DNA from: an uncultured Synechococcaceae cyanobacterium
GTDB taxonomy: Bacteria; Cyanobacteriota; Cyanobacteriia; PCC-6307; Cyanobiaceae
Length of the DNA stretch: 46,301 nt
Assembly: GCA_903907855.1 (NCBI GenBank)
Contig: CAIVPT010000052.1
Coordinates: 1 to 46,301 of the forward strand
Direction: 5' to 3'
Each line of letters opens with the position of its first letter. Within the stretch, counting starts at the first letter, position 1. The notes under the pieces were generated by a model. The model was not told the DNA's origin. It saw only the letters and a program-made list of their open reading frames with translations, and made no database searches. Both the position numbers and the translations under genes were made by a program. Of the stretch, positions 3,669 through 38,069 are shown in pieces.

Positions 3669-3698
3669 GGCTGGATCATGGCTGGAGCCGCCCTCCCC

Positions 3699-4223: not shown

Positions 4224-4236
4224 GGGGTTAGCGGCC

Positions 4237-4467: not shown

Positions 4468-4476
4468 GGGGGCAGG

Positions 4477-5460: not shown

Positions 5461-5509
5461 GGGATCGCGCCCAACCCCGCCTAGCCTGCCCGCTCCTAGC
5501 GCCCCTGGC

Positions 5510-6637
5510 ATGCAGCGCTTCGCCGATCAGCCCCTGGGGGATCGGCCGGCCGTGGTGGTGCTCGGCGCGGCGAAGCTCGGCAACTACGTGGTGCTCCAGC
5601 CGCTGCTGCGCGGCCTGCGCCGCAAATACCCCCACGCCCACCTCACCTACGTCGGCAGCCGCCGCACCCTTGAGCTCGAGCGCCTCAACCCCTGGATCGA
5701 CCGCAGCCTGCCCCTGGCGGAGCTTCGGGAGGCGGCCGGCGCCGTGCTGGAGGGCTGGCGCCGCCGCCGCGGTTCCCCCCACCTGGTGATCAACGCCGAC
5801 GGCCACAGCCCCCACACCCGCAGCTGGGTGCGGGCCCTGGCGCCGCGCTATGTGGTGGGCCAGGCCGACCTGCCCGCCGGCGACCACCCCCTGCAGCGCC
5901 TCTCCCTCGATCCCGACTGGTCGGCGCCCGATCTGGAGCGTCGCTACGCCGGCTGGATCGGCGCATCCACCATCGGCGCTCTCTTCTGCCGCGTGGCCTG
6001 GCTGGGCAGCGACGGCGGTGATCCCCCACCCCTCCCCTCGGCTCCCCCGCCCCCCGACCTGCCGCCGGTGCTGCTGGCGGTGGATGGGGAACGCCCCGCC
6101 AAGCTCTGGCCCCTGGAGCAGTGGCGCGCCCTGTGCGAGCGGCTCGCCACGGATCTCCACCTGCCGCCCCCCTCCCTCGGCCTGGTGGGCGCTCCGCCGC
6201 GCGGCACTGGCGGCCCGGGGCGCGCCATCGAGGAGGGGTTGCTGGCCCTGGGGGTGCGGGATCTGCGGGGGCGGCTGCGGCTGCCGGAGCTGGTGGGGGC
6301 GATGGCCGCCAGTCGCCTGGTGCTGGCGATCGATTCCGGGCCGATGCATCTGGCGGCGGCGGCCGGTTGCCCCACCGTGGCGATCTTCGCGGCCGATGGG
6401 TCGGGGGTGGGGGCCAGCCCGGCCCGGTTGTGGGCGCCGCGCAGCCCCCGGGTGTGGGTGTCGACCACGCCGGTGCACTGCCAGGGTTGCCACGATCTGG
6501 CCTTCGCCAACGACGACTGCGTGGTGAGCGGCCACCCCTGCATGGCCGCCCTCGACAGCGAGCGGCTGTGGCCGCTGGTGCAGGCGGCCTGGCGCGGCGG
6601 CGGCGCCGAGCGGCTGCGCGATTTCTCCTGCGCTTAG
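5510..6637 (+). CDS. Family 9 (heptosyltransferase-like) glycosyltransferase
   Basis: The protein is 375 aa from ATG 5510. The frame is open upstream, but that extension overlaps the divergent GT2 gene. It starts with a Rossmann-like VVVLGAAKLGNYVVLQPLLRGL segment. In the C-terminal half it carries the GT9 signature LAIDSGPMHLAAAAGCPTVA (~270-290), which binds the sugar nucleotide. Such enzymes add heptose or other sugars to lipopolysaccharide core or related surface glycans. The tail contains several Cys (CQGCHDL, DDCVVSGHPC), as often seen in GT9 proteins. It is divergent from the GT2 gene (49-nt gap), and its stop codon overlaps the stop of the convergent exostosin-like gene. The acceptor is unknown. 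Confidence 0.83.
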   Translation: MQRFADQPLGDRPAVVVLGAAKLGNYVVLQPLLRGLRRKYPHAHLTYVGSRRTLELERLNPWIDRSLPLAELREAAGAVLEGWRRRRGSPHLVINADGHSPHTRSWVRALAPRYVVGQADLPAGDHPLQRLSLDPDWSAPDLERRYAGWIGASTIGALFCRVAWLGSDGGDPPPLPSAPPPPDLPPVLLAVDGERPAKLWPLEQWRALCERLATDLHLPPPSLGLVGAPPRGTGGPGRAIEEGLLALGVRDLRGRLRLPELVGAMAASRLVLAIDSGPMHLAAAAGCPTVAIFAADGSGVGASPARLWAPRSPRVWVSTTPVHCQGCHDLAFANDDCVVSGHPCMAALDSERLWPLVQAAWRGGGAERLRDFSCA

Positions 6638-7992
6638 CGCTCCAGCGACGGGGTGCGGGCGCTCACGGTCCAGCGCAACGAGGGCCGCTCCGCCAGCAGG
6701 GCGGCCCCCAGCCGCAGGGCCGGCCCCCACAGCCGCTCCTGCAGCGCCGCGGGGCGGGTGTCGTCGAGGCGGAGCAGCAGCCGTGCCCCTTCCGGCGCCT
6801 GCGCCCGCCAGCGCCGCAGCCGCAGGGGCAGCTCCGCCGGGTCCGCCAGCTGCCATTCCTCCGGCGGGGGGGGCGCCGTGGCGGCCGCCGGGGCCTCCCC
6901 GTCGGGCACCGCCGCCAGCCGCTCCAGGGCCCGCTGCCGCAGCACCCCATCCGGGTCGCGCAGGAAGTCGCAGACATCCGCCACGAAGGAGCCCCCTTCC
7001 TGGGCTGACCCCTCCCCCTGGAGCGCGGGCGGCCCATAGCGCGCCCACAGGATCCGGCCCGCCGCCTGCATCGCCGCCAGCCGCGCCGGCTCCTGCCGCA
7101 GCCGCTCCAGCCGCTCCGGCAGGGCCGCCACCGCCTCCGCCCGCTCCGGCACCAGCAGCGCCGCCTCCTCCCACAGGGTTGCCGGACCGGGCAGGGCCAG
7201 GGCGTCGGCCAGGATCACCGGGATGGCGCCGAAGCCCAGCGCCTCCCACAGGCGGATCGAGTTCGGCCCCGTCCCTGCGGGGCAGAGGGCGAAGCAGCTG
7301 TGCTGCAGGGTGGCCACGTAGGCGTCGGCGGCGTCCGCCAGGTGCCGGTGGCGCGCCCCATCGGGCCGTTGGCCGTGCACCTGCTCCCGGTAGACCTCCT
7401 GCTCGAAATGCCATTCGCCCCGCCCCTCCACCCGGGCGTCGGCCCGGGGGGGCAGGGCCAGCAGCCAGCGCCGCACGTCGCTGCCGCTTCCCTCCTGCGG
7501 TTGGAAGCCCTGGAAGCCATAGAGCAGGGGCCGGTTTGCGGCGGCGGCTGGCGGGGCGTCCGGCCGATGGCTCAGGCAGCGCACCGGCAGCAGGGGGAAG
7601 GGGTGGATGCGCAGGCCATCGCGGTGGGTTTCGCCGCGGACGGCGTGGCTCCAGAAAAGATCGGTGATGCCGGCGGCCCGCAGGGCATCGGTGTGCTCGA
7701 GGGCCCAGATGTGCTGGCAGACCGTGGCCACCGGCGTGTGATCCGGCCAGCGGCGCAGCGGCGCCGTGGGGGGGCGCAGGCCGCGGTGCACCGCGTCGAT
7801 CCAGCTGGCCCAGGGGAAGGGCAGGTAGGTGGCGGCGCCGGGGGTGGGGGCGGCGGAGCCGGCCAGGCCGAGGCGGTGCAGGATCTCCCAGGCGGTGGCC
7901 TCGGTGGCGTTGGGCCGCTGCCAGGGCAGGCCCGCCATCGGCGGACCGCCGCCCGCCCCCTGCGCCGATGCCTCAGACGCGGAGGTTCTCAC
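6634..7992 (-). CDS. Exostosin-like (GT47-type) glycosyltransferase
   Basis: The protein is 452 aa from 7992; a start at 7938 (MAGLPWQ) would avoid the 20-nt overlap with the upstream gene. The C-terminal half has the exostosin-type motif FALCPAGTGPNSIRLWEALG followed by FGAIPVILAD (~233-263). Upstream are the block ATYLPFPWASW, a VCQHIW segment and LFWSHA, which recur in the 1372- and 785-aa proteins of this island. It is predicted to be a retaining-type glycosyltransferase acting on surface polysaccharide; substrate is unknown. It has no obvious membrane segment. It probably shares a transcript with the upstream coiled-coil gene. Confidence 0.75.
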   Translation of the reverse strand: MRTSASEASAQGAGGGPPMAGLPWQRPNATEATAWEILHRLGLAGSAAPTPGAATYLPFPWASWIDAVHRGLRPPTAPLRRWPDHTPVATVCQHIWALEHTDALRAAGITDLFWSHAVRGETHRDGLRIHPFPLLPVRCLSHRPDAPPAAAANRPLLYGFQGFQPQEGSGSDVRRWLLALPPRADARVEGRGEWHFEQEVYREQVHGQRPDGARHRHLADAADAYVATLQHSCFALCPAGTGPNSIRLWEALGFGAIPVILADALALPGPATLWEEAALLVPERAEAVAALPERLERLRQEPARLAAMQAAGRILWARYGPPALQGEGSAQEGGSFVADVCDFLRDPDGVLRQRALERLAAVPDGEAPAAATAPPPPEEWQLADPAELPLRLRRWRAQAPEGARLLLRLDDTRPAALQERLWGPALRLGAALLAERPSLRWTVSARTPSLER

Positions 7993-9229
7993 GCACCAGC
8001 TGCAGGATTGTGGCGATCTTCGTGCGATCGATCTGCGGGGTCAGGCGGCTGTGCAGGAAGAGGGTGCGGCACTCCTCCTCCAGGCCCGCCAGCCGCTCCT
8101 CCAGCCGCGCCAGCTGCTCCACCCGCGCCTCGCCCTGGCTGCGCGCCTGGGTGAGTTCCTGGAAGGTGTGCGTGAGTTCGTCCTGCACCTGCTTGAGCTG
8201 CAACAGGATCAGCTCCCGCTCCTCCTCGCCATCGCGCTGGCGGGCCTCCTGCTCCGCCAACCGCTGGCCCATGTCCTGCAGTCGCTGGCGCGATTCCTCC
8301 AGCTGCCGCGCCCACTCCGCCTCCTGGGACTTCTGCTTCGCCTGCAGGGACTCCTGCTCCGTGAGCAGGGCTTGGCGCTCCTCCTGCATCCGTTGCGCCT
8401 GGCCCTCCAGCTCGGTGGCCTGGTGCTCCAGCTGGCGGCGCAGCACCTCCGCCTCCGCCTCCGTCTGTTGGTGCAGCCCCGCCACATCCGCCAGCACGCC
8501 GCTGGTGGTGGCCAGCTCGCCCTTCAGCAGTTCCTGCTCCCGAGCCAGCCGCTCCAGCTCCTGGTGGTGCGCTGCGCGCAGGGACAGCCAGTCGTGCAGC
8601 AGGCGCTCCGCCAGCACCAGGCCCCGCTCGGGCGGCGCAGTTGCTGGGGCCTGGGGATCGCGGCCCAGCAGCTCGGCACAGCCCTCGAGATCGGCCAGCA
8701 GCTGGTCGATCTCCGGACGCTGGGCCAGGTAGTGCGCCACCACCGGTGGTAGGGCCGGCCCGGGGGGCGCCGGGGCGGCCTCGTCCCCGAGGCCCACCGG
8801 CTGCCCCCCAGGGGCAAGGCGCTCAAGCAGCGCCGCTGCCGCCGCCCGATCCAGCCGATCCAGGGCGATCAGCAGGACCGGTGGGCCCGGCCGTTGGCGC
8901 AGCTGCAGCATCCGCTCGGCGCTGCGCTGCCAGGCGCCCAACAGGGCGGCCAGATCCGGCGCCGCTTCCCGCGCCAGCGCCTCCGCCAGGCCGGAGCGGG
9001 GATCGCGATAGCCGAGGAGCAGCCGCTCAGGAGGGGCGGTGTCCTCCAACGGGGCGTCCGCGTGGAGAACGGTGAGCGGCCGCTCTTGCTGCAGTTGCTC
9101 CAGCACGGATGCGGGCCAAGCGCTCAGCGCATCCGCCAGCACCACCAAAGCCCCCTCGGCGATCTCCGGTGAGCCCCCAGCGGCGATCTCCGGCGTTCCC
9201 TCCTCGGTTGGCGGGGTCTCGGCGCCCAT
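7973..9229 (-). CDS. Coiled-coil protein, unknown function
   Basis: The protein is 418 aa. Residues 1-210 form an Ala/Leu-rich globular part containing LLLGYRDPRSGLAEAL (~70-86). Residues ~220-390 are a long heptad-rich coiled coil, dense in Glu/Gln/Arg/Leu (for example LEEECRTLFLHSR near its end). The C-terminus IATILQLVRENLRV is non-repetitive. No enzymatic motif is seen. It is divergently transcribed from a second coiled-coil gene 139 nt away and lies directly upstream of an exostosin-like gene, with which it overlaps by 20 nt. A scaffold or chain-length-control role in glycan assembly is speculation from position only. Confidence 0.7.
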   Translation of the reverse strand: MGAETPPTEEGTPEIAAGGSPEIAEGALVVLADALSAWPASVLEQLQQERPLTVLHADAPLEDTAPPERLLLGYRDPRSGLAEALAREAAPDLAALLGAWQRSAERMLQLRQRPGPPVLLIALDRLDRAAAAALLERLAPGGQPVGLGDEAAPAPPGPALPPVVAHYLAQRPEIDQLLADLEGCAELLGRDPQAPATAPPERGLVLAERLLHDWLSLRAAHHQELERLAREQELLKGELATTSGVLADVAGLHQQTEAEAEVLRRQLEHQATELEGQAQRMQEERQALLTEQESLQAKQKSQEAEWARQLEESRQRLQDMGQRLAEQEARQRDGEEERELILLQLKQVQDELTHTFQELTQARSQGEARVEQLARLEERLAGLEEECRTLFLHSRLTPQIDRTKIATILQLVRENLRV

Positions 9230-9368
9230 GGTCTGGGGTGCGCGGCCGCAACGGCGGGCCGGGAGTGGATGGGCTCAGCCTAGGGGCAGCCTCGACGCCC
9301 CCCGGGCAGGGAAGGAGCCGCTGCTCCGAACCTAGGATCGGCTCCCAGCCCCCCCCCGAGCGCCCCTC

Positions 9369-10820
9369 TTGGCGTTGTCTCCGGTCTGCGAAGCCGCCCC
9401 CCCCTGGCAGGTGCTGATCGGTCCGTTCGCCTCCGAGCACATTGAGGCCGAACTCGACCACGGCGCCCCCCTGCTGCTCGTTCCCAACGACCTGGAGCGC
9501 GCCGAGGCCCTGGCCCAGCAGTTCGAGGGCGGCGGCGGCGGCCGTCTCTCCTTTTCCCGCGACCTGCTCGCTGCCGACGATCGGGAGGTGTGCTGGTACC
9601 GCTACAGCGATCCGCGCTTCGACGGGGTGACGCCGCCGGAGGAGCTGCACCACCTGGCGCCCAACCTGCGGCTGCGGGATCTGGAGCTGCGGGCGGCGGT
9701 GCGTCTCGACAGCCTGATCCACTCCTGGGCCAACCGCGACCCCGCCCTGGCGGCCCTGGTGTCCGCCGGCGGTGGGCGGGTGTGGCTGCAGGGCAAGCAG
9801 CCGCTGCCGATCGTGGCCGGCGTCAGCCGGGTGGTGGAGGTGATCGGCGAGTTCTGCTGGACCCCCCTGGGCACGCCGGTCGATCCCCCGGGCGGGCCGG
9901 CGTCGCAGGAGCGGCTGGCCGAATGGCTGGAGTCCAGCGGCTTCCATCCCGCCGAGCGGCGCACCGTCAACGCCCAGTGCGCGGCGTCCAGCCTGGTGTG
10001 GCGCCAGGATCCGCTGCGGCGGGCCGCGGTGCGCCAGCAGCGGCTGGAGGCGGAGAGCGAGCGGCTGCGGCAGGAGCGCGACGGGCTGGGCCAGGAGCGC
10101 GACGGGCTGCGGCAGGACGTGGAAGTGCTGCGTCAGGAGGCGGAAGTGCTGCGGGCGTCGCTGGCGGAGGCCGAGGCGCGGCAGGCGGCTCTCACGGCGG
10201 CGCACGCGGCCGCTGACTCCCGATGGCAGGCCGAGCGCGAGGCCCTGCAGCAGGCGGCGGGGGCGGAGCGCTCTCTCCTGGAGGCCGAGGTGCTCCGGCT
10301 GAGCGGGGAGGCGGATGGGCTGAGGCAGGAGGCGGAGACCCAGCGGCAGGGGCTGGAGGCCGAGGCGGCGGCCGAGCGGGCAGTGCGCGAGGCCGAGATC
10401 GTCCGGTTGGCGCAGGAGGGGGTGGTGCAGCGCCAGGAGGCCGAGGGGCTGCGGCGGGAAGCGGAAGTGTTGCGGCGGGAGGCGGAAGCGCTGCGGGGGG
10501 AAGTCGAGGCCCTGCGGCTTGAGGGCGAAAGTCTGCGGCTTGAGGGCGAAAGTCTGCGGCAGGAAGCGGCGGACCGCACGCAAGAAGCGGCGGAGCGGGC
10601 CCAGGAAGCGGCGTATCTGCGGCAGAGGCTGGAGACCCTGCAGCAAGAGGTGGACGCGGCTGCCGCCCAGCGGCTCCTGCTGGAGGCCGAGATCGAACGG
10701 TTGGGGCAGGAGAACGGCACCCTCCGCCAGGAGACCCGCGCCGAGATCGCGGCGATCCTCGCCCTGCTCGCCCCCGCCGAGACCCTCAGTCCGACCCCAG
10801 GCGCTCCTGCAGCGCCCTGA
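9369..10820 (+). CDS. Long coiled-coil protein with N-terminal globular domain
   Basis: This frame gives 483 aa from a TTG codon at 9369; a second TTG at 9375 or a GTG at about 9408 are alternatives, so the start is uncertain. Residues ~1-210 form a globular domain with WYRYSDPRFDGVTPPEEL (~76-93) and a VRLDSLIHSWA segment (~111). Residues ~215-465 are an almost uninterrupted coiled coil built of QEAEVLRREAE-like heptads. The Y-x-DPR stretch loosely recalls YRDPR in the divergent 418-aa protein, hinting at related N-terminal domains. No catalytic motif is visible. It is the only plus-strand gene between 6638 and 20333. Its 3' end overlaps the convergent 75-aa gene by 35 nt. Confidence 0.72.
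   Translation: MALSPVCEAAPPWQVLIGPFASEHIEAELDHGAPLLLVPNDLERAEALAQQFEGGGGGRLSFSRDLLAADDREVCWYRYSDPRFDGVTPPEELHHLAPNLRLRDLELRAAVRLDSLIHSWANRDPALAALVSAGGGRVWLQGKQPLPIVAGVSRVVEVIGEFCWTPLGTPVDPPGGPASQERLAEWLESSGFHPAERRTVNAQCAASSLVWRQDPLRRAAVRQQRLEAESERLRQERDGLGQERDGLRQDVEVLRQEAEVLRASLAEAEARQAALTAAHAAADSRWQAEREALQQAAGAERSLLEAEVLRLSGEADGLRQEAETQRQGLEAEAAAERAVREAEIVRLAQEGVVQRQEAEGLRREAEVLRREAEALRGEVEALRLEGESLRLEGESLRQEAADRTQEAAERAQEAAYLRQRLETLQQEVDAAAAQRLLLEAEIERLGQENGTLRQETRAEIAAILALLAPAETLSPTPGAPAAP
10512..10553. repeat. 21-bp perfect tandem repeat, two copies, in coiled-coil gene
   Basis: Units 10512-10532 and 10533-10553 are identical. Each encodes seven residues (LRLEGES), exactly one heptad. 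Gain or loss of units would lengthen or shorten the coiled coil without disturbing register. Confidence 0.9.
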
Positions 10821-11013
10821 GCCGCTGCAGCGCCTCCGCCCGGCGCTCCCCCTCCTGCCGCCGCTCCTCCTGCAAGGTTGCACACAGCTCGCTGATCTCC
10901 CGCAGCCGCTCGAAACTGCGCTGCTCGCTGCGCGCCAGCTCATCCTTCAGCCGCTGGCAGCCGGGGCAGGGAGGGGCCAACTCCATCTCGGCCGCGCGGG
11001 CTTTCTTCGCCAT
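10786..11013 (-). CDS. Small coiled-coil protein with CxxC motif
   Basis: This 75-residue protein starts MAKKARAAEMEL, has a single CPGC motif (~16-19) and then a helical, Arg/Glu/Leu-rich coiled coil to the end. It lies 12 nt downstream of the sulfotransferase gene on the same strand, which supports a real, co-transcribed gene. Its 3' end overlaps the convergent 483-aa coiled-coil gene by 35 nt. No family is recognised. The Cys pair could bind metal or form a disulfide. Confidence 0.55.
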   Translation of the reverse strand: MAKKARAAEMELAPPCPGCQRLKDELARSEQRSFERLREISELCATLQEERRQEGERRAEALQRLRALQERLGSD

Positions 11014-11025
11014 CGGCTCGGCTGC

Positions 11026-11859
11026 TCAGGGGGCCGTTGAAACGGCGCCGTAGGGGAACGGCGCTTCTGGATCCTCACTGTAGGCAAGGCGCTCGCACAG
11101 GGCTCCGTAGCTCGGGGAGGCCCCCAGTTCGCGCCGCAGGGCATCGTCCACGGGCCGCCGCGGACGCGCTTCGAGGACCGCCGAGCTGCGGCCGCTGTCC
11201 CCGGAGAGCACCACCCGGCCGAAGTGCTCCAGGGCCGAGGGATCGAAGGGCAACTCCAGGGCGGTCGTCAGCCGCGCCAGCCCCCGCGCCGGTTCGCCCA
11301 CGAACTCCTCGTACGGCAGGCGGGGCACCCCCTCCGCCGCCTCCAGCATCGCCAGGCAGCGACGGAAGAACTCATCGGGGCTGGCGAAGGCGGTCTGGTG
11401 CATCCAGTCGGTGAGCCGCAGTGACAGCCAGCAGTCGAGGGGATGGCGCACGGTGAGCAGCCGCAGGGGGCGGCTGCGGCCCGCCATCGCCTCCGCCAGG
11501 GTGAAGCGCAGCCCGGGCAGGGCGCCGGTGAAAAAATCGAGGTGGTCGTGGCTGCGCACCACCACCCGCTCCCCCTGGGCCTCGGCCCGGCGCAGCAGCG
11601 CCTCGAGGCCGCCGCAGAACGCCGCCAGCACCAGCACCGGGTCGCGGCCGTTGTGGCTCTGCGAGAGCTGGTGGCACAGGTCGGTGGGGAGGTACGCCCG
11701 GGGCTGGGGCGCCAGATGGCGCAGGTGCGCATAGGGATGCACCTCATTCAGCAGCAGCACCTGCGGCAGGCTGGCCGCCACCTTGGCGAACAGGGTGCCG
11801 CCGCTGCAGGCCCAGTGGTGCAGCAGGCGCAAGCGGGGCAGGGGGGGGGAGGCGGCCAC
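11026..11859 (-). CDS. Sulfotransferase-like protein
   Basis: The protein is 277 aa. The N-terminal LLHHWACSGGTLFAKVAA (~12-29) resembles the P-loop-like 5'-phosphosulfate-binding loop of sulfotransferases. LLTVRHPLDCWLSLRLTDW further on matches the 3'-phosphate-binding motif (RxPxxxxxS). The end AYSEDPEAPFPYG is unassigned. Such enzymes transfer sulfate from PAPS to a glycan or other acceptor. It lies 9 nt downstream of the 1372-aa multi-domain glycosyltransferase and 12 nt upstream of a small coiled-coil gene, so sulfation of the product of that enzyme is a reasonable inference. PAPS binding is not proven. Confidence 0.72.
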   Translation of the reverse strand: MAASPPLPRLRLLHHWACSGGTLFAKVAASLPQVLLLNEVHPYAHLRHLAPQPRAYLPTDLCHQLSQSHNGRDPVLVLAAFCGGLEALLRRAEAQGERVVVRSHDHLDFFTGALPGLRFTLAEAMAGRSRPLRLLTVRHPLDCWLSLRLTDWMHQTAFASPDEFFRRCLAMLEAAEGVPRLPYEEFVGEPARGLARLTTALELPFDPSALEHFGRVVLSGDSGRSSAVLEARPRRPVDDALRRELGASPSYGALCERLAYSEDPEAPFPYGAVSTAP

Positions 11860-11868
11860 CGTTGCGCG

Positions 11869-14800
11869 TCAGTCCGCCTGCAGAACGTATTCGAAATCCT
11901 GGGGCTGCCCACCGTTCTGCAGGCGGCCACGGATCTCCAGCAACGTGCAGCCCTCGTATTCCCACAGCTTGAGGGCGCGCACCAGCTCGCGGGGCTCGAT
12001 CAGTCGGCCATGCACCACATACCAGTCGGTGAAATGTGGCCCCACATCGGCGTGGTGTTCCCTCTCCCCCCTGCGATAGCGCAACACCGCGCTCACCACC
12101 GTCTGCTCCAGCCGCGCCGGTCCGCGCACCCTCTGCACCCGCTCCAGGTACTTCATCGAGCAACGGCGCGTCCAGTCGAAGTCGGCCCGCAGCTCCGCCG
12201 TTTCCTCCGGGCTGCGCAGGGTCACCACCCCCGCCTCCAACCGCTCCAGGGGATCGATCTCCCCCTGGGGGCCCTCCAGGCGGATCGAGTAGTTCGGCAG
12301 CCGCACCCCGAGCAGGGTCAGCAGCTGGCGGTGCAGCGGATGGGAGGAAGCCCGCATCCGCGCGCAGGTAGCCGCCAGCTCCGGCGGGGTCACCCACCAG
12401 GGCACCTCCCCCTCCCGACCCACCTGGGGCAGCTCGGCGATCACCAGGTCGTCGGGGTCCAGCTCCAGGGGGCAGGGCTGCAGGTCCTCGGCAAACAGCG
12501 CCCGTGCCTCCGGGTCGACGATCGCCAGGCTGCGCGCCGCCCGGCAGCCGGCCCCCGCCATCCGCCCGGCGCGGATGCGCAGCTGCCGGTGGCGGGGCGC
12601 CTCCAAGTCGAGGCCGGCGATGGTGGTGGCCAGGGTGTCGAATAGCCGCTCGATCGTGCCGTTGCGCCCGAACCACTCCCAGCAGGCGCGCGACATCCGC
12701 TCCCACTGCTCCGGCGTGGTTTCGCGCACCAGCCGCGGCACGTCCTCCCGCCGGTGGGCCCAGAGGAAATGAATGCCCTCCTGCAGCGGCTCGGGGTAGT
12801 CGGTCTCCAGGCCTGCGGTGAGGATCAGCGGCGTTCCCAGGGCCAGGTATTCGATCTCCCGATAGCACTTCGGGCCGTTGCCGTGGAAGCAGACGCCGAA
12901 GCGGCTGCGCTGCACCAGCTCCATATAGTCCGCCAGCGGGTAGGGACTGGCCTCGTGCCGGTTCAACTTGTCGGCGCAGGCGTAGACCTCGATCAGCTCA
13001 CCCCAATCCCGGAAGCGCTCGCGGAAGTATTCCTGGGTTTCATTCTCCACCGAGCCGGCGAACAGGCTGCCGATGCTGCGTTGTTCCCAGCTGCGACGAC
13101 CTTTTTGCCGCAGTTCCTCCAGCAGCACCGGTGCGTAGCCCCAGTAGGTGAGCTTGTGGTGGCGGGCGCTGGGCAGGTGATATTGATTGGCAAAGAAGGC
13201 CTGTCTGTAGGGCACATTGCCAGGCCAGCGTGGGGGATTTTTCTTGCCATCCTGCAGATTGATGATCAGATCGCGCTCAAACAGCAGCACGTCACCTTCT
13301 TTCCCCCACCAGAAGTAACTTCCTTCCGAGAAACGCAGGTTGATCCAGCCGCGCTGATACCACTCCAGAACGATGTCGTAGAAGGCGCACTTGCGGCTGC
13401 GCCAGAACCAGCGATCCCGTGGACCGTGCAGCGGCACCACCAACGTGGGCCGCTGGGGATCGGGCGCGCCGGTCTCGCGCCGCGGTGTCGGCACCGCCCG
13501 CTCGATCGCCCCGAAGCACACCGCCCGCTGGCGCCGCCGGTGTGCCGCCAGCGCCCCGGCGCTGCGGGCGGCGATCTCCGCCTCGGGCAGGCTCGCCAGC
13601 CGCTGGGGCAGGCTCGCCAGCGCCTCGCTCGGGTGACGCAGCACGATCGCCTCCCCCTCGGGGCCGGCGAGGCCGTCGGGCAGGGCCCCTTCGTTGTCGA
13701 GCAGCACCGGGATCGCCCCCACCGCCAGCGCGTCCCAGAGCCCCTCGGGGTTCACCCCACGCCCCGCCGGGCAGAGGCGGAACACCGAATCGCTCAGCAT
13801 CCGGTCGTAGCGGTCCCAGGCCTCCCCCTGCCGAACAGCCTCCTCCGGCCAGGCGCTCGCCAGCTCCACATGCCAGCGGTGTTCGTGGTGCCGGGCCGCC
13901 AGCGCCTGCCGCACCCCCTCCAGGGCGATCTCCCCCTGGAAGCTGGCCAGAAACGGACGCTGGTGCGGGGGGTGGAGCGCCAGCTGGGGCCGTTCCCTGG
14001 GGTTGGCGCCGCCGAAGGGGCACAGATGCCAGGGGCGCAGCCGCAGCCGCCCCAGCGTCTCCTGGCCGCTCGGGGCGTGGGAGAGCCAGAGGGTGTCCAC
14101 CCCCGCCGCCTCCAGGGCCCCGGCCAGCTCCCGCCAGCGCCGGTGTTGGCAGACGCTGTGCACCTCCAGCTCCAGCCCGAACTCCCGCAGGGCCTGCCGC
14201 AGCGCCGCCACGCGGCTGCCGTGGGCCTGCAGCAGCGGCTCGGGCCAGCGATCGCTCTCGGCAAACGTGGCCCAGGGCAGGCCCATGTAGAGCTGCAGCC
14301 GCTTCCCGTCCCGCTGGGGGCCCGGCAGCCGTCCGTGGGCCCGCCAGGCATCCTCCTCGGTGCGGGAGCCGGGCCACCAGAACAGCAGGTCGTCGGGGTG
14401 GCGGCGGGCCGCCGCCACCAGGGACGGCCGCAGCTCCAGCCGCGGCTGCCCGTAGCCCCAGAGCAACAACCCCAGGGGATCGTCGATGCCACCGGGCACC
14501 GCCTCCAGCGGGCTCTCCCCCACCCAGGGCCAGAAGGGGTCGTCGAACAGGAGGCGCTCCCCCCCGGGGCTGCGCAGCACCTGAAAGCGGCGCCCGAAGC
14601 GGGCGACCGGTGTCCAGTTCGAGAGGTCACCGAGGCTCTCGCGGCGGCACCAGCGCAGGGGGGGCTCTGGCCTTTCCTCTGGCCTTTTCTCTGGCGTCTC
14701 CTCCCGCGGACTGTTCCTCGCGTCGGCGGGCGCCTCGGCGATGCGCCGCAGGCTTTTGCGCTCCGCCCCCCCTTCGCGGCCGAAGAGCACCAGTTCCAGC

Positions 14801-15987
14801 CCCTCCTGCGGACCCCAGCGCACCCCGGCCGCCCCCGTCAGCCGCAGCCGCAGCTGCCGATGCCCCGCGCCGGTCGCAGCCACCAGCGGCAGGAACGTGC
14901 GCGCTCCGCCGCCCGCCAGCGGCTGCCGCTCCGGCGCCAGCAACGGCACCACCGCCCCGTCGGCCTCCACCCCCTCCAGCTCCAGCGCCAGCCCCGGCGG
15001 GCTGTGGCGAGGCAGCCGCACGCAGGCCTCCGCGATCGGGCTGGGGTGCCGCAGGACGATCGTGTGCCACTCCGGCCCCAGGTCGGCCAGCGGCAGGAAG
15101 AGGGTGTCTTCGCTCGGCCAGTTCTCGGCGCTCGCCGGCGCCAGCGTGTGCACCGACCCCAGCGCCTCCCGGCTCCAGCTCAACCCGCTGTACCGCTGCT
15201 GGCGCGCGAAGGCCTCCCCCAGGGACGGGTCGGGATGGTGGAGGCTGTGCACACCGGCCCCCACGGCCTGCTGGTTGATCACCAGACCGGCGGCGGGGCT
15301 GGCGGCCCGGGTCCAGAGGGCGTGCTCCAGCTCCGACGGCTCCTCCGGCGCCAGGGAGGGATGGACGTAGGTGACGCCCCCGTAGAGGCGGTCGTCGGTC
15401 TTGTCGTAGCCGCGACCGGTGTCGGCGTGCCGGTGCACGCTGCGCACGTGGTAACTCGGGTTCTTGAGCACGAAGCCGTGGCTCCACATCACCGAGGCGA
15501 TGCGGTTGTCGCAGCCGGGGAAGCCGAGGGGGAAGCCGCTGGCGTGCAGCAGGCCGGCGCTGATCGGCGCGTCGCTGCGCACTCCCCAGCAGTCCTGGGT
15601 CCAGTGGGGGTAATCGTTGAGGCTGGTGCCCCCCTCCGCCCGCGGGTTGTAGCGGGTCAGCGCCAGGAAGGTGTCGGGCCGCTCGAACACCGCCGGCAGA
15701 TGCTCCAGACCCTCCGCCAGGTGGATGTCGGCGTTGAGGAGCAGGGCGATCGCATCGGCTTCCCGGGGCACCAGCCGCAGCCAGTCGGCGTAGGTGAGGC
15801 GGGTGTTGTGGCGGAGGAGGTCGCAGGGCACCGGCCCCTGCGGCGGGGAGGGCGCCCCGTCCTCCACCAGAAGCACCAGTTGGCTGATCAGAGGGTGCTG
15901 GCGGTTGTAGGCCAGGCAGGCATCGATCTCCCGTTGGCGCTCCGGCTCGCGCGCCCGGTAGTACTGGCTGTAAACGACGATGCGCAT
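11869..15987 (-). CDS. 1372-aa multi-domain glycosyltransferase
   Basis: Three transferase-like modules are fused. Residues ~1-230 form a GT-A-like domain found in bacteria and plants (MRIVVYSQYY start; LLLNADIHLAEG at ~83-94; DCWGVRSDAPI at ~132; FPGCDNRIASVMWSHG at ~156). Residues ~230-450 are a spacer with a beta-rich stretch. Residues ~550-830 are an exostosin-like domain with FRLCPAGRGVNPEGLWDALA (~736-755) and VGAIPVLLDN. Residues ~850-1125 form a third, CgeB/GT-B-like domain (LTYWGYAPVLLEEL; SRFGVCFHGNGPKCYREIEY at ~1028-1047; LALGTPLILTAG). Residues ~1150-1372 have no recognised family. It has no membrane segment. It is encoded 9 nt upstream of a sulfotransferase gene. One chain may catalyse several successive steps of a glycan; donors are unknown. 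Confidence 0.78.
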   Translation of the reverse strand: MRIVVYSQYYRAREPERQREIDACLAYNRQHPLISQLVLLVEDGAPSPPQGPVPCDLLRHNTRLTYADWLRLVPREADAIALLLNADIHLAEGLEHLPAVFERPDTFLALTRYNPRAEGGTSLNDYPHWTQDCWGVRSDAPISAGLLHASGFPLGFPGCDNRIASVMWSHGFVLKNPSYHVRSVHRHADTGRGYDKTDDRLYGGVTYVHPSLAPEEPSELEHALWTRAASPAAGLVINQQAVGAGVHSLHHPDPSLGEAFARQQRYSGLSWSREALGSVHTLAPASAENWPSEDTLFLPLADLGPEWHTIVLRHPSPIAEACVRLPRHSPPGLALELEGVEADGAVVPLLAPERQPLAGGGARTFLPLVAATGAGHRQLRLRLTGAAGVRWGPQEGLELVLFGREGGAERKSLRRIAEAPADARNSPREETPEKRPEERPEPPLRWCRRESLGDLSNWTPVARFGRRFQVLRSPGGERLLFDDPFWPWVGESPLEAVPGGIDDPLGLLLWGYGQPRLELRPSLVAAARRHPDDLLFWWPGSRTEEDAWRAHGRLPGPQRDGKRLQLYMGLPWATFAESDRWPEPLLQAHGSRVAALRQALREFGLELEVHSVCQHRRWRELAGALEAAGVDTLWLSHAPSGQETLGRLRLRPWHLCPFGGANPRERPQLALHPPHQRPFLASFQGEIALEGVRQALAARHHEHRWHVELASAWPEEAVRQGEAWDRYDRMLSDSVFRLCPAGRGVNPEGLWDALAVGAIPVLLDNEGALPDGLAGPEGEAIVLRHPSEALASLPQRLASLPEAEIAARSAGALAAHRRRQRAVCFGAIERAVPTPRRETGAPDPQRPTLVVPLHGPRDRWFWRSRKCAFYDIVLEWYQRGWINLRFSEGSYFWWGKEGDVLLFERDLIINLQDGKKNPPRWPGNVPYRQAFFANQYHLPSARHHKLTYWGYAPVLLEELRQKGRRSWEQRSIGSLFAGSVENETQEYFRERFRDWGELIEVYACADKLNRHEASPYPLADYMELVQRSRFGVCFHGNGPKCYREIEYLALGTPLILTAGLETDYPEPLQEGIHFLWAHRREDVPRLVRETTPEQWERMSRACWEWFGRNGTIERLFDTLATTIAGLDLEAPRHRQLRIRAGRMAGAGCRAARSLAIVDPEARALFAEDLQPCPLELDPDDLVIAELPQVGREGEVPWWVTPPELAATCARMRASSHPLHRQLLTLLGVRLPNYSIRLEGPQGEIDPLERLEAGVVTLRSPEETAELRADFDWTRRCSMKYLERVQRVRGPARLEQTVVSAVLRYRRGEREHHADVGPHFTDWYVVHGRLIEPRELVRALKLWEYEGCTLLEIRGRLQNGGQPQDFEYVLQAD

Positions 15988-16113
15988 ACGGCCGCACAGT
16001 TCACGGCCCCAGGCCGGATGGGAGAGGTCTGCCGCGCCGCGCCGGCGGATCAGGGCAACAATACGTGCGGCCGTCGGACCTGAATCCGCCGCATCTGTCG
16101 CCGCCGCCGGCGA

Positions 16114-17892
16114 TCAAGGGATCCCCCCCTCCTGTGGCTGGAAGGAGAGGATCCGCCCCCACCAGTGCTCCAGTCCCAGGCGCTCCACGGTGCGTCGCCG
16201 TCCTTCCGGGGTGTCGATGGCGGCGATCAACCGCCGTTGCAGGGCCGCCAGCCGCGCCGGCGCCAGGGCCTCGGCGGTCCATTCCGATACAAACGCCACC
16301 GGCAGATCCTCGTAGGCCCCATCAAGGGCGGAGGAGCGCACCACCGGGATCGTGCCGTGCAGCATCGCCAGCCAGGCCTTCGGCGAGGGGTCCAGGCCCC
16401 CCCCGGCCACGCAGAGCACGAAGGCGTGCTGGCGCAGGAGCTGCAGGAAGCGCCGCTCCGGTACCTCCTCCTCCAGCACCGTGCTCCAGGCCGCCAGCTC
16501 GCGCCGTGCCAGCTCGCTCACCCGCCGTCGCGTTTCCCATTGCGGACCCTCCCGCAGACGGTGGGCGCAGAGCAGGCGCAAGGGGCGGCAGGCCTGGGGG
16601 GGAATGCGCGGGATCGTCAGCGGCTGCTCGCCTCCACCCTCCGGGAAGGTGAGGCCCACGGGCAGGGGCTGGAGTTTCGGGTGGAACCGGGCGTCGAGGT
16701 TCTCGGCGGCCCAGGCGATCAGGCGCGGGTCGTCGAGGAGGCGGGCGATGCGCTGCCGTTCCTCCTCGTGGAAGGTGCGCCAGCGCTGGTCCAGCTGGCG
16801 CGGCAGGGTCACGTCCTCCGAGCCGCTGATCAGCCGGAAGGGTCCCTGGATCTGGGGCAGCACCTCCTCCTCCAGGAAGGCCAGGGCCGCGAACGGTTCC
16901 CGCAGCGACAGGAAGACATGCCGCGGGTGGTTCCCCTCCACCTGGCGCCGCAGCGCCACCCGCGGCTCCCGCTCGTCGCTGAGCACCACCCAGTCGCAGC
17001 GGGCGGCGATGCCGCTGAGCTGATAGGCCTCCGCTCCCCCGTATTTGGGGAACAGCCGCGTGGAGTGCACCGTGAGCCGCTCAGACGCCAGGGGTGCGGG
17101 CACCAGGGGCACCAGGGGGGCTGGTGGGTCGCTCGTTGTCCCCGCCCTGGGCTGCCAGGGGGCCGCCCTCTCCCGCAGCGCTTCCAGCAGCGCCTCCAGC
17201 TCAACCGGCAGGGGGGGCGCCGCCGACGGCGAGCCCCGCAGCTCCGGATCGAAGAAAGCCCCGCCCGCCTCCGGCGACCGCCGGGGGAGCTCCAGCGACG
17301 CCAACACCGCGTCCAGCCCCTGGCGCACCCGCTCCGGGTCGGCGTCGAACTCGAGGAGCGGGAAGGACAGGCGGCGCTGCCATGCCAGCAGCCGGCGGTT
17401 GTAGGCCGCCCAGATCGCCAGTCCCTGCTCCAGTGGGAAGCCATTGCGCCGCTGCAGCGAGCGGGCCACCGGCAGGGGATGGCGGAAGATCCCCACGGGT
17501 TCCATGTGGGGCAGCACCTCCAGCCAGCCCTCCAGGGTCAGCAGGGTGCGGGGATCCTTGAAGCCCCACAGCGGCTGCTGGGCCCGCGATTCCACAAACA
17601 GATCGCGCACGCTGCGGTGCAGCTCCCCCCACGCCACCGTCTCGGGCGGCTCGCGCCAGCTGCCGCCGTTGCTCTCCAACAGATGCTCGTGCATGTAGAG
17701 CACCGCCGGCGCCTCCTGCAGGCCCTTGCGATTGCCTTCGATGCCCTGGGCCAGCACCTGGCCGATGTGCACGCCGGCGTCGCGCAGGGTGCCCATCAAC
17801 ACGCTGGTGCCGCTGCGGTGCATGCCCAGCACCACGAGGCAGCGCCCCTCGGGGGGGGGCAGTACGGGGGGTCGCTCGTCCGGCGCGCCCAT
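16114..17892 (-). CDS. Sulfotransferase-exostosin fusion protein
   Basis: This is a 592-aa two-domain protein. Residues ~15-220 are a sulfotransferase: CLVVLGMHRSGTSVLMGTL (~18-36) is the 5'-phosphosulfate loop, GFKDPRTLL lies at ~110, and FRHPLPVARSLQRRNG (~136-151) is the 3'-phosphate motif. Residues ~270-590 form an exostosin-like transferase with LTVHSTRLFPKYGGAEAY, LISGSEDVTLPRQL and the diagnostic FVLCVAGGGLDPSPKAWLAM followed by HGTIPVVRS (~492-520). The fusion implies that sugar addition and sulfation occur on the same glycan. It ends 126 nt upstream of the 1372-aa gene's start, on the same strand. It begins 24 nt after the stop of the 785-aa gene. Confidence 0.8.
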   Translation of the reverse strand: MGAPDERPPVLPPPEGRCLVVLGMHRSGTSVLMGTLRDAGVHIGQVLAQGIEGNRKGLQEAPAVLYMHEHLLESNGGSWREPPETVAWGELHRSVRDLFVESRAQQPLWGFKDPRTLLTLEGWLEVLPHMEPVGIFRHPLPVARSLQRRNGFPLEQGLAIWAAYNRRLLAWQRRLSFPLLEFDADPERVRQGLDAVLASLELPRRSPEAGGAFFDPELRGSPSAAPPLPVELEALLEALRERAAPWQPRAGTTSDPPAPLVPLVPAPLASERLTVHSTRLFPKYGGAEAYQLSGIAARCDWVVLSDEREPRVALRRQVEGNHPRHVFLSLREPFAALAFLEEEVLPQIQGPFRLISGSEDVTLPRQLDQRWRTFHEEERQRIARLLDDPRLIAWAAENLDARFHPKLQPLPVGLTFPEGGGEQPLTIPRIPPQACRPLRLLCAHRLREGPQWETRRRVSELARRELAAWSTVLEEEVPERRFLQLLRQHAFVLCVAGGGLDPSPKAWLAMLHGTIPVVRSSALDGAYEDLPVAFVSEWTAEALAPARLAALQRRLIAAIDTPEGRRRTVERLGLEHWWGRILSFQPQEGGIP

Positions 17893-17916
17893 GGGGTCGG
17901 CAGTGCGAAGCGAACC

Positions 17917-20274
17917 CTAGCCCTGGGTTCCGGCCGGGGGAGGGGATCCGAAGCAGGGCCGCCGCCGGGCCGCCCGCAGCAGCCGCGCGCCCAACAGCTG
18001 GCGCGTGCGCCAGGCCAGCGGATCTTCCGTCAGAGCATCGTCCTGGGTCCCGCTCCAGAGGATTGCCGCCTCCTGCCACGCCCGCGGCCGCTCCGGCAGA
18101 AGCCACGCCGCGTCGGGCAGCCAGGGGGCCTCCCCCAGGAACACCGGCACCGCCCCGGCCGCCAGAACCCGCCAGAGGCGCCCAGGATCAGCCCCCGCCC
18201 CGCCGGGGCAGAGCGCGAAGCGGCAGCGGCCCAGCTGCGCCATCTCCTCCACAGGGTCCCCCCCTGGATCCGTCGCCGGCTCCAGGAGGGTGGGCCGGCT
18301 GGTCCAGTCCGCCTGGACGGCGGCCAGCTCCGGGGCCGGACCTGCGGCCGGATCGGCGGTCGGATCGGCGGTCGCCCCGGGGAGCGCCGGCCAGGCGTGC
18401 AGGTGCAGGCCGTCCGCCTCGGCCGCCTCCCGCTCCTCCTCCCCAGGGGGCAGCACAAGCCAGAGGTCGCTCACGCCCAGCTCCCGCCAACACGGCCGCA
18501 GGGTCGACCAGGAGGACGCCTCGCAGACGCTGTGGACCCGCAGCGACCGCCCCACCGCCGCCAGCTCCTTCGCCATCGCCCGCAACCGCCCCCCGTAGGC
18601 CGCAAGAAGCCGCTCCGGTACCGCTCCGGCCTGCAGGAAGGAGTGCCACGGCAGCCCCACATAGGTGCACACCGTCCCCGCTGCCCCCTCGGCCCAGGCC
18701 AGGGCGGCATGGCGGTCGCGCGCCTCGGCCTCGATCCCGGCCCCCTGCCAGTGCAGCAGCGCCTCGCTGTGGTCTGCCCGTCGCGGAATCCAGTTGGGTT
18801 TCCATTCCAACAGGGGCGGCGCGAAGGCCTGGGCGAACCAGTCCGCGGGCGTATCGCCCCGCAGCGCCATCCAGCGATGGGGGGTGGGCCAGAAGCGATC
18901 GCGGGCCACCAGGCCGCCGCTCTCCACCAGCAGCTCGAAGCGATCCCCCCAGCGGGCCACGGGCTCCGCCGTTTCCTGGTGGGGGGCAACCAGCAGCTGC
19001 ACCTCCAGGAAGCACTCCTCTCTCTCTGGCGCCCCCACGCTTTCCCCCGACGGGGGGTCCAGCGTCAGCTGCAGCCAGGCGATCGGCAGCGCGGGCCAGG
19101 CGCTGGGCAGCAGCAGGTGCTCTCCGGCCCGGGCGGGTCCCACCGGCAGCACCAGGGCCGGGGGGCGGGCGCCGGCCCCGGCGCCATCGGCGCCACCGGC
19201 GGCCAGGCCAAACGCCACCCGCAAGCGCCCGCCCCCCGGCTGCGCCAGGGGCAACCGCAGGGCGAGGCCCACCAGCGTGTGGGGCCGCAGCAGGGTCAGG
19301 CGGCAGCCCTCCCCCCCCAGGGCCTCCAACGGCAGGAACAGGGCCTCGGCGCTGGCCGGCGGCGGTGGCGCTTCGCCCGCTGCGGGGCTGGACACCGCCA
19401 GCTCGTGGGAGGCCAGCGGCCGGGAGCGTCGCCGCAGGGCGACGAGTGCCTGGCGATCGCCGAACGGTGTGGACGCGGCGCGGCCGGCGGTGCCGGCGGG
19501 CAGCGCCGCCGCCGCCAGGTAGGGCTGCTCCCCCCCCTCCCCCTGCTCCGGTTCCACCTGCACCAGCAGCCCACCGGAGCGCTCCGGCTGCCGACTCCAG
19601 AGGCGGTGCTCCAGCTCCGAGGGTTCGTTGGGCGCCAGGGCGGGATGCACATAGGTGCAGGCGCCGAGGAGGCGGTCGGGGCGGCGGTCGTAGGCGCCGG
19701 CCCCCAGGCGCTGGTGGTGCACCGCCTGCAGATGCAGGGCGGGGTTGCTCAGCCGCAGACCGTGGCTCCACAGCACATGGGCGATGCGGTTGTCGGAGCC
19801 GGGCCGGCCGACCGGCAGCGCGGCAGCCGCCTCCAGGTCGGCGTTGATCGGGGCATCGCTGCGGATCCCCCAGACGTCCTGGCGCCAGTGGGGATCGCCC
19901 TCCAGTCGGCTCCCCCGCTCCGCCGTGGCCGCCTCCCGGCGGGTGAGGGCCAGGGCGTCGTGCCGATCCCTTAGGAGCCGCCCGAGCTGGGCGAAGCCCT
20001 CCCCCAGGGCGATGTCGGCGTTGGCGAGCAGCACGATCGCCTCCTCGCTGGCGGCCGCCAGGCGCAGCCAGTCTGCAAAGCGCAGCCGTCGCGCCAGCGG
20101 GCGGAGCTCCACCGGCACCGTCCCCCTTGGCGGCGGCGGCGCCCCGGGCTCCATCCACACCACGGCCGCGGCCAGGGCGGGATGGCGCAGGTTGTGGGCC
20201 AGGCACTGATCCAGCTCCTCCTGGCGCTGCGGGGTGCTGGCCCGGAACCGCTGCAGGCAGAGAATTGTGCGCAT
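17917..20274 (-). CDS. 785-aa two-domain glycosyltransferase, paralogue of the 1372-aa protein
   Basis: Residues ~1-230 repeat the N-terminal domain of the 1372-aa protein (LLANADIALGEGF at ~82-94, DVWGIRSDAPINAD at ~133, GSDNRIAHVLWSHG at ~159, TYVHPALAPNEPSELEHRLW at ~207-226). A beta-rich, Pro/Ala-interrupted spacer follows. Residues ~530-780 are exostosin-like, with YVGLPWHSFL, HSVCEASSW, FALCPGGAGADPGRLW (~686-701) and AGAVPVFLGE. It lacks the third domain of its paralogue. It heads the minus-strand run (785, 592, 1372, sulfotransferase, 75 aa), so these probably form one operon. It is divergent from the type I secretion genes with a 59-nt gap. Confidence 0.76.
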   Translation of the reverse strand: MRTILCLQRFRASTPQRQEELDQCLAHNLRHPALAAAVVWMEPGAPPPPRGTVPVELRPLARRLRFADWLRLAAASEEAIVLLANADIALGEGFAQLGRLLRDRHDALALTRREAATAERGSRLEGDPHWRQDVWGIRSDAPINADLEAAAALPVGRPGSDNRIAHVLWSHGLRLSNPALHLQAVHHQRLGAGAYDRRPDRLLGACTYVHPALAPNEPSELEHRLWSRQPERSGGLLVQVEPEQGEGGEQPYLAAAALPAGTAGRAASTPFGDRQALVALRRRSRPLASHELAVSSPAAGEAPPPPASAEALFLPLEALGGEGCRLTLLRPHTLVGLALRLPLAQPGGGRLRVAFGLAAGGADGAGAGARPPALVLPVGPARAGEHLLLPSAWPALPIAWLQLTLDPPSGESVGAPEREECFLEVQLLVAPHQETAEPVARWGDRFELLVESGGLVARDRFWPTPHRWMALRGDTPADWFAQAFAPPLLEWKPNWIPRRADHSEALLHWQGAGIEAEARDRHAALAWAEGAAGTVCTYVGLPWHSFLQAGAVPERLLAAYGGRLRAMAKELAAVGRSLRVHSVCEASSWSTLRPCWRELGVSDLWLVLPPGEEEREAAEADGLHLHAWPALPGATADPTADPAAGPAPELAAVQADWTSRPTLLEPATDPGGDPVEEMAQLGRCRFALCPGGAGADPGRLWRVLAAGAVPVFLGEAPWLPDAAWLLPERPRAWQEAAILWSGTQDDALTEDPLAWRTRQLLGARLLRAARRRPCFGSPPPAGTQG

Positions 20275-38055: not shown

Positions 38056-38069
38056 GGTTGACTTGGGGA

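Follow-up and report, generated by a model that had tools for sequence, protein, structure and literature searches.

Gene Organization of the Operon

Contig CAIVPT010000052.1 of an uncultured Synechococcaceae cyanobacterium, a freshwater picocyanobacterium probably of Cyanobium type (assembly GCA_903907855.1), is one entire contig of a 3.0-Mb draft genome, and its full length of 46,301 nucleotides is referred to here as the window. The core of the locus is a four-gene operon on the minus strand (20274–11026), which codes for the proteins P0004, P0003, P0002 and P0007 (ST7) with intergenic gaps of 24, 126 and 9 bases. In the same order, the operon comprises a GT-A glycosyltransferase domain joined to an exostosin domain, a sulfotransferase joined to a GT-B glycosyltransferase domain, a GT-A, an exostosin and a further GT-B domain in one chain, and a stand-alone sulfotransferase. 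Its products probably assemble a sulfated surface glycan.

P0004 (785 residues, 17917–20274) consists of a GT-A-like domain (residues 1–245, 19540–20274), in which eight of eight checked residues are kept, and a shortened exostosin-like GT-B part (about residues 500–770, 17965–18777). P0003 (592 residues, 16114–17892) combines a sulfotransferase domain (residues 1–250, 17143–17892) with a GT-B domain resembling A075L of family GT114 (residues 266–592, 16117–17097). P0002 (1372 residues, 11869–15987) contains a GT-A domain (residues 1–245, 15253–15987), an exostosin GT47 domain (residues 535–828, 13504–14385), a second exostosin-like domain with Arg1043 and Glu1046 (about residues 845–1160, 12508–13455) and a tail. 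ST7 (277 residues, 11026–11859) is of the sulfotransferase family and has one match in the genome. This gene, which begins 9 bases after the P0002 gene, was missing from an earlier sequence-only reading of this DNA and is the most informative neighbour. The fourth protein named in that reading, the stand-alone GT47 exostosin P0001 (452 residues, 6634–7992, minus strand), is encoded outside the operon, with an opposite-strand gene intervening.

The sequence-only reading had reported a shared motif, F-x-LC-x-x-G-x-G...W...G-x-(I/V)PV, in the 452-, 592-, 785- and 1372-residue proteins. A six-frame scan of the whole window found exactly four matches, one in each of these proteins, all on the minus strand (7267–7293, 13756–13782, 16396–16422 and 18193–18219). 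When the residues of the same frames were shuffled in 200 rounds, the core motif occurred 0.035 times per window and the full motif never, and the observation was thereby borne out. The four contexts of the motif had likewise been described correctly: it stands alone, follows a sulfotransferase, follows a GT-A domain, or is flanked by a GT-A domain and another domain. The upstream blocks ascribed to the 452-, 785- and 1372-residue proteins (PW and VC...W) are present and fall within the exostosin GT-B unit, in its N-terminal half, but the spacing is VC-x3-W in the 452-residue protein and VC-x4-W in the other two.

Exostosin Families and Predicted Fold

Against the Pfam exostosin profile PF03016 (gathering cut-off 33.4 bits), P0001 (47.6) and P0002 (56.1) scored above the cut-off and P0004 (18.9) below it, and P0003 gave no match at E ≤ 1. 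At E ≤ 1 the NCBIfam search returned nothing for P0001–P0003, and P0004 drew a single weak row of no related family; none of the four matched PHROG at E ≤ 0.001. Profile comparison with hhalign gave mutual probabilities of 99–100% over 210–289 columns for the exostosin units of P0001, of P0002 type and of P0004 type. The glycosyltransferase domain of P0003 reached the exostosin profile with 89.6% over 76 columns only, and the C-terminal domain of P0002 with 93.9% over 95 columns, in both cases solely via the nucleotide-binding half; these two domains showed no match to each other (1.9%), and GT-A and sulfotransferase control profiles gave at most 2.3%. Judged by these profiles, the 452-, 785- and 1372-residue proteins belong to one GT47 exostosin family, so that only three of the four supposed paralogous exostosin domains are such, the domain of the 592-residue protein being of another family. 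The motif is real but had been partly misread; in bacteria the "exostosin" motif covers several families.

The C-terminal domain of P0002 had been labelled CgeB-like. The label was rejected, no CgeB row being found in Pfam at E ≤ 1. The domain matched P0001 (blastp E 7e-6) and, by this similarity and the profile comparison above, is a fifth, divergent exostosin relative, which had gone unnoticed. Across the relatives of P0002 this domain is present in the window and in G007, a genome of a Lake Pavin relative; G014 and G015 have in its place a Glyco_transf_7C-like domain, which falls short of the Pfam cut-off in G014 and narrowly exceeds it in G015, and nothing stands there in G004, G018 and G023. 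Such exchanged and missing C-termini support the domain shuffling that the sequence-only reading had proposed. The viral contig L105 carries a relative of the window C-terminus with 39% identity. In this 458-kb contig, a 1730-residue protein (3261–8450) has the parts of P0002 in another order, namely exostosin, GT-A, and a relative of the C-terminus and tail. Thirteen loci with relatives lie on IMG/VR viral contigs, and tandem P0002-type GT-A-like domains with no exostosin match were seen on the viral contigs L110, L112, L113 and L115; in annotated phages, a tblastn search with P0002 as the only query of the four proteins found none. P0002 relatives that end in a Glyco_transf_7C-like GT-A domain (L026/L067, 546–4634, and L030/L069) are thus GT-A+GT-B+GT-A proteins, and a Rhodobacteraceae locus (L093, 9689–13255) encodes exostosin, GT-A and exostosin in one chain.

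An AlphaFold model of P0002 1–835 had a mean pLDDT of 86.7. Its residues 495–827 aligned to human EXT2 with Z 18.2 (263 aligned residues, root-mean-square deviation 4.7, 13% identity) and to EXTL3 with Z 15.7, and EXT1 was among the top Foldseek matches; the range for this half against EXT1, EXT2 and EXTL3 structures was Z 14.8–18.2. Residues 1–237 have the GT-A fold in the model, with CHSY3-CHPF (Z 13.0), the fucosyltransferase WrtF (Z 12.4) and GalNAc-T2 (Z 12.1) as matches; a GT64 chain was absent among the structural matches listed, a list with which GT64 membership is nevertheless compatible. Residues 245–500 are beta-rich and received no domain assignment. A model of the C-terminus built from a three-sequence alignment was poor (mean pLDDT 45.7). 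The GT-B likeness of P0001 to EXT proteins and EXTL3 comes from profile comparison. A075L also aligned to the exostosin half of P0002 (Z 11.3, 228 residues), which fits a distant common fold.

The nearest match by sequence of the P0003 glycosyltransferase domain is A075L/GT114 (profile E 6.6e-12), residues 384–583 matching A075L as a single sequence with E 8e-8. A075L is described in the available part of PMC11571054 as a beta-xylosyltransferase of chlorovirus PBCV-1. The likeness covers the C-terminal 200 residues of P0003, for which a GT-B fold is expected; the difference lies in the fusion to a sulfotransferase and in the donor contacts of A075L, Arg208 and Glu211, which correspond in the HMMER alignment to Lys505 and Leu508 of P0003. 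The lysine is identical in all nine aligned P0003-type sequences. Because these contacts are replaced, P0003 is regarded as GT114-like and not as a GT114 member.

Duplication History

P0002 and P0004 align by blastp (E 7e-87) with 34% identity across some 790 residues, and each has its own orthologue in G007. In a tree of 52 exostosin rows the two orthologue pairs are sisters (98/91), from which it follows that the duplication predates the split of the window from G007. P0002/P0004 is thus a true duplication, older than the separation from the Lake Pavin relative. Long branches were flagged by the program for P0004, the G007 orthologue of P0002 and L037, so that the pairing of P0004 is better assured than its exact position.

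P0001 and its orthologues lie in the opposite half of the tree from P0002 and P0004, and a tree holding the three together was rejected by the approximately unbiased (AU) test (p-AU 7.3e-6), so that, by phylogeny, the exostosin of P0001 stems from elsewhere in the tree. The phylogenetic check that the sequence-only reading had suggested thus went against a common grouping. P0001 (94% in G033) and P0003 (54% in G011; 57% in G007 for the glycosyltransferase domain) are closer to distant homologues than to their neighbours, and P0002 and P0004 are so only narrowly, each through its own G007 orthologue. Local duplication consequently stands for P0002/P0004, as a duplication of the whole protein, and fails for P0001 and for the P0003 domain of another family. 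A model of four paralogues was rejected on the combined results of hhalign, the tree and the AU test.

Active-Site Residues

Thirty-four sequences from 33 of the 39 loci described below were aligned with two window sequences (n = 36); L070, L071, L096, L099, L101 and L104, which were split, cut or near-duplicate, were left out. The GT-A residues N85, D87, W129, Q131, D132, D160, N161 and H185 (P0002 numbering) were invariant in all 36 sequences. In the exostosin half, Arg was found at position 749 in 35/36 and Glu at position 752 in 33/36. P0002 of the window has Gly749 and Asp752, and its G007 orthologue is intact at both positions. In P0004 Arg699 is kept and Arg702 replaces the conserved Glu; the G007 orthologue of P0004 keeps the Arg and has Gln for Glu. 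An exostosin stretch of 97–131 residues (most about 115) in the other 34 sequences is shortened to 76 in P0004 and 52 in its orthologue. P0001 keeps the Arg-x-x-Glu spacing (Arg247/Glu250).

In EXT1, Arg346 and Glu349 bind UDP, and loss of the residue equivalent to Arg346 accompanies the inactive site of EXT2, according to the available part of PMC9675754; the GT47 domain of EXTL3 is likewise thought inactive (PMC9178029, available part). The equivalence to Arg346/Glu349 was drawn by motif and not by superposition. From the altered Glu position, the shortened stretch and the parallels with EXT2 and EXTL3, the exostosin half of P0004 is probably a pseudo-enzyme. The residues at 749 and 752 make exostosin activity of P0002 doubtful in the window genome.

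Sulfotransferases and Their Linkage to the GT-A+Exostosin Gene

The P0003 sulfotransferase domain and ST7 matched the Pfam profile Sulfotransfer_3 (cut-off 27) with 20.7 bits (E 5.6e-4) and 14.1 bits, respectively, and ST7 homologues in L088 (31.4) and L090 (30.0) scored above the cut-off. P0003 contains GMHRSGTS and FRHP, and ST7 contains SGGTL and VRHP, which we take to be the 5'- and 3'-phosphosulfate motifs of sulfotransferases that use 3'-phosphoadenosine 5'-phosphosulfate (PAPS). These PAPS-site-like motifs are kept in at least 85% of 18 ST7 and 8 P0003-type sequences. A gene for adenosine 5'-phosphosulfate (APS) kinase, above cut-off, is present in the genome on a different contig from the window.

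Loci matching the P0002/P0004 profile in a scan of genome contigs numbered 39; they come from Cyanobacteria, from the alpha, beta and gamma classes of Proteobacteria and from one acidobacterial metagenome-assembled genome. The GT-A and exostosin halves are in a single open reading frame (ORF) in 35/39. The ST7 family occurs somewhere in the fetched stretch in 17/39, and in 12/39 it is the immediate neighbour of the GT-A+exostosin gene (same strand, ≤70 bp), these adjacent cases coming from Cyanobium, Maricaulaceae-type and Alteromonadales/Reinekea lineages. On a contig binned as betaproteobacterial (L070, 1–2495), GT-A and exostosin of the Cyanobium type are encoded by two ORFs that overlap; in the tree this copy falls with CACIAM 14 (100/98), which indicates transfer or misbinning. 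All 13 genomes that had been selected because they contain the pair gave a single clear ST7 match, one of them with an extra partial match (E 8e-8).

The association was further examined, with no selection for the pair, in 299 genomes of the order of Maricaulis, where a match was called strong at E < 1e-60, a line drawn after the lists had been seen. Both halves were strong in 7 genomes, the exostosin half only in 6 (G092, G100, G101, G127, G204 and G248), and ST7 was found in 19. ST7 was present in 5 of the 7 two-half genomes versus 14/292 others (Fisher's test, p 1.2e-5) and, without three discovery genomes, in 2/4 versus 14/292 (p 0.015). When the genomes with the exostosin half only were counted too, the figures were 8/13 versus 11/286 (p 5.7e-8) and, without the discovery genomes, 5/10 versus 11/286 (p 5.1e-5). 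Up to three candidates were scored per genome, so presence may be undercounted, and the genomes are interrelated, a kinship that Fisher's test ignores. In the five two-half genomes with ST7 both matches lie 65–101 bp apart. In G127 and G204 the exostosin is in a frame of 335–372 residues with ST7 2.6 kb off, and in G248 the distance of ST7 is 12 kb to the strong exostosin match and 1.4 kb to a weak one.

The two halves of P0003 are fused in the window, G011 and Reinekea, and are adjacent genes in five Maricaulaceae-type loci (L088, L089, L090, L091 and L103), all of which also have a GT-A+exostosin gene. G007/L066 has the P0003 transferase with no partner sulfotransferase, and so does L087, whose contig is cut there. 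A stretch of 6 kb in G011 takes in ST7, the P0003 fusion and ORFs that match the two coiled-coil families of the flanking genes, although the search of that genome yielded no relative of P0002. The coupling of transferases with sulfotransferases that the sequence-only reading had suggested is therefore supported by ST7 adjacency, by the co-occurrence counts and by P0003-type fusions and neighbours.

Flanking Genes and Other Features of the Window

Divergent from the operon is a plus-strand unit that begins with a PpiC-type peptidyl-prolyl isomerase (PPIase; 20334–21134), followed by an ATP-binding cassette (ABC) transporter with a domain binding cyclic nucleotide monophosphates (21131–24157) and an HlyD-type adaptor (24157–25458), the latter named by eye from the sequence and adjoining the ABC gene in relatives too. 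The unit would serve type I secretion. Gene order in G007 is as in the window: ST7, P0002, P0003 transferase, P0004, PPIase, ABC, HlyD.

On the other side are a plus-strand gene for a protein with a globular N-terminus and a coiled coil (9369–10820), a minus-strand pair of the coiled-coil protein P0005 (7973–9229) and P0001, overlapping by 20 bases at the start of P0001, a family-9 glycosyltransferase (5111–6637, plus strand; the listed GTG probably lies upstream of the true start) and a family-2 glycosyltransferase (4477–5511, minus strand). The N-terminus of the 9369–10820 protein resembles the protein preceding ST7 in Maricaulis and relatives (81%, E 1.2e-5, 178 columns). Relatives of P0005 adjoin a P0001-type gene in G007 and a P0003 homologue in G011; homology of P0005 to the protein opening the Maricaulis operon was not detected (0.09% probability).

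Elsewhere in the window, the minus strand of 1–2145 encodes the N-terminal 715 residues of a repeat protein truncated where the contig stops, a candidate secreted protein whose G+C content is about 50% as compared with 61–77% in the rest of the window. A 244-residue ORF (29812–30546, minus strand) resembles, on inspection by eye, a fragment of a secreted repeat protein and gave no Pfam match. The ORF at 30730–32411 (minus strand) resembles, also by eye, only the C-terminal part of phosphoglycerate mutase, and upstream of it a long minus-strand ORF overlaps in another frame, perhaps through a frame break or an assembly error. A second small glycan cluster (37333–40624, minus strand) has a putative rhamnosyl transferase (PF11316) between two genes judged by eye to be methyltransferase-like.

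Proposed Assembly Pathway

Genes for GDP-mannose dehydratase and GDP-fucose synthase lie beside two Maricaulis copies (L085 and L088), and rmlA–D beside a Paraglaciecola copy (L077), all above the NCBIfam cut-offs; in L088 an FkbM-type methyltransferase follows the Maricaulis gene. Together with the PAPS-site-like motifs and the APS kinase, these genes favour a deoxyhexose-containing sulfated glycan made stepwise. We read the operon, at a probability of roughly 0.52, as a cytoplasmic assembly set for such a PAPS-sulfated surface glycan. The GT-A domains of P0002 and P0004 and the GT-B domains of P0002 and P0003 would each draw on a nucleotide-sugar donor to add a sugar, and sulfate from PAPS would be put on the growing unit by P0003, through its sulfotransferase half, and by the dedicated sulfotransferase ST7. 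P0001, its coiled-coil partner and the flanking family-2 and family-9 enzymes could supply further sugars, and the degenerate exostosin half of P0004 would probably be structural. The acceptor may be a lipid carrier or else a protein that the neighbouring type I unit exports; the position of that unit suggests a secreted protein, but the unit is seen only in some Cyanobium loci. The analysis shows the domain make-up, the fold class of P0002 1–835 as predicted, the history of duplication and the conservation of the gene neighbourhood; that the enzymes act on one common glycan, in a given order and to a sulfated product, is what we infer from the gene set.

The sequence-only reading had considered a heparan-like alternation of transfer and sulfation. 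Heparan chemistry was set aside as unsupported: the scan of window proteins recognised no uronic-acid genes, the three proteobacterial relatives scanned have genes for fucose or rhamnose nearby, a sign against a heparan composition, and two of the three window exostosin sites have lost donor-binding residues. A deoxyhexose-containing sulfated glycan is thus a likelier product than a heparan-like chain, if the sugar composition of the relatives may be carried over to the cyanobacterium.

Several observations weigh against a stepwise sulfated-glycan pathway. P0002 of the window lacks the Arg matching EXT1 Arg346, so that this step may not run there; both window sulfotransferase domains are below the Pfam cut-off; and P0003 of G007 is without the sulfotransferase half. 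ST7 is missing from the fetched stretch in 22/39 loci, a count uncorrected for the many short contigs, and 14 of the 19 ST7 genomes in the order of Maricaulis have no two-half protein. In the genus of the window co-occurrence was not significant (2/7 versus 2/29, p 0.16), one of the 7 genomes (G033) having its contig cut inside the cluster. A flippase, a polymerase and a polysaccharide ABC exporter were unrecognised among the window proteins scanned with Pfam, which did not comprise all ORFs.

Among other explanations, a surface-polysaccharide island in which unrelated transferase genes were gathered by horizontal transfer, their co-location not reflecting one pathway, would agree with the origin of P0001 from a different exostosin branch, the exchanged C-termini of P0002 relatives, the patchy presence of the genes in the genus and the frequent occurrence of ST7 without the fusion. 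The same operon order and strand in G007, a single and adjacent ST7 in three separate lineages and the co-occurrence in the 299 genomes argue otherwise, and we hold this to be unlikely, although less so than the explanations that follow. A copolymerase like EXT1/EXT2, with P0002 and P0004 as a heteromer whose GT-A and GT-B domains alternate two sugars, one GT-B serving as scaffold and ST7 sulfating the polymer, is rather improbable. It would account for a paralogous bi-domain pair at 34% identity, each with one GT-A and one GT47-like GT-B domain and adjoined by a dedicated sulfotransferase; EXT1 and EXT2 are likewise 34% identical (PMC9675754, available part). The domain order is reversed, however, with GT-A first and GT64 absent among the GT-A structural matches listed, and the missing Arg in P0002 and the sugar genes discussed above also tell against it; moreover, two GT-A+exostosin genes were counted in the fetched stretch of only 1/39 loci (L066, the G007 copy). 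A broader proposal, to which we give slightly less credence still, would make the locus a bacterial counterpart, in reversed domain order, of the heparan polymerase with its sulfotransferase, catalytic/pseudo GT-A+GT47 pairs elongating a chain that a linked sulfotransferase sulfates, a system common to picocyanobacteria and marine Proteobacteria with related fusions on viral contigs.

Glycosylation and sulfation of a type I substrate, such as the repeat protein of 1–2145, before or during its export ranks with the copolymerase in our estimate. PPIase-ABC-HlyD stands directly beside a P0004-type or P0002-like gene in the window, G007, G015 and G033, the PPIase is about 12.6 kb away in G014, and two repeat proteins of the window are, by eye, likely secreted; but G004, G018 and G023 lack the unit next to their P0002-like genes, and none of the proteobacterial loci has an ORF clustering with it (the clustering also formed antisense-frame groups, which were ignored). 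Last, the sequence-only model of four local duplicates of one exostosin, working as an assembly line of four active exostosins, retains the P0002/P0004 duplication and the shared motif in its favour and is highly improbable in view of the AU test on P0001, the other family of the P0003 domain and the degenerate site of P0004.

Comparison with Known Systems

GT47 exostosins are known chiefly from animal heparan and plant wall synthesis. The exostosin proteins of the window and their relatives resemble EXT1, EXT2 and EXTL3 (GT47+GT64; available parts of PMC9675754 and PMC9178029) in the GT47 GT-B fold, in the presence of bi-domain GT-B and GT-A proteins, in the Arg-x-x-Glu found in P0001 and most relatives, and in a paralogous pair with a degenerate GT-B half. 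They differ in that GT47 precedes GT64 in the EXT type and GT-A precedes GT47 here, in an identity of about 13%, and in that glucuronic acid and N-acetylglucosamine are without support at the window locus. Given this order, P0002 and P0004 are compared with EXT-type copolymerases in mechanism only and are not filed among them. The family could provide bacterial relatives for the study of bi-domain exostosins.

The synechan (xss) cluster of Synechocystis 6803 (PMC8205485, available part) is also cyanobacterial and has two sulfotransferases among several glycosyltransferases. In contrast to the window, where none was recognised among the Pfam-scanned proteins and the contig ends at 46301, xss has Wzx, Wzy and PCP genes, and the words exostosin and GT47 are absent from the main text of that paper, which in 2021 stated, in the same part, that a sulfated polysaccharide had not been reported in other bacteria. 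The capsule locus of Vibrio sp. KMM 8419, a marine proteobacterium (PMC11641403, available part), unites dTDP-rhamnose genes, glycosyltransferases and sulfotransferases, as do relatives here, but its cluster also includes genes for PAPS and an ABC transporter, and "exostosin" is absent from the main text.

A literature search, with most subscription journals outside its coverage, gave no title on a bacterial GT-A+exostosin/sulfotransferase set among the matches listed. For annotators, a bacterial "exostosin" motif conceals several families. With its own sulfotransferase adjoining it in three bacterial lineages, the GT-A+GT47 fusion offers a system in which the assembly of sulfated glycans by bacteria can be tested. 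Clusters for sulfated surface glycans, those of synechan and the Vibrio KMM 8419 capsule for example, are known; new, as far as the literature search shows, are the fusion of GT-A with GT47 next to a sulfotransferase of its own and the fusion of a sulfotransferase with a GT114-like domain.

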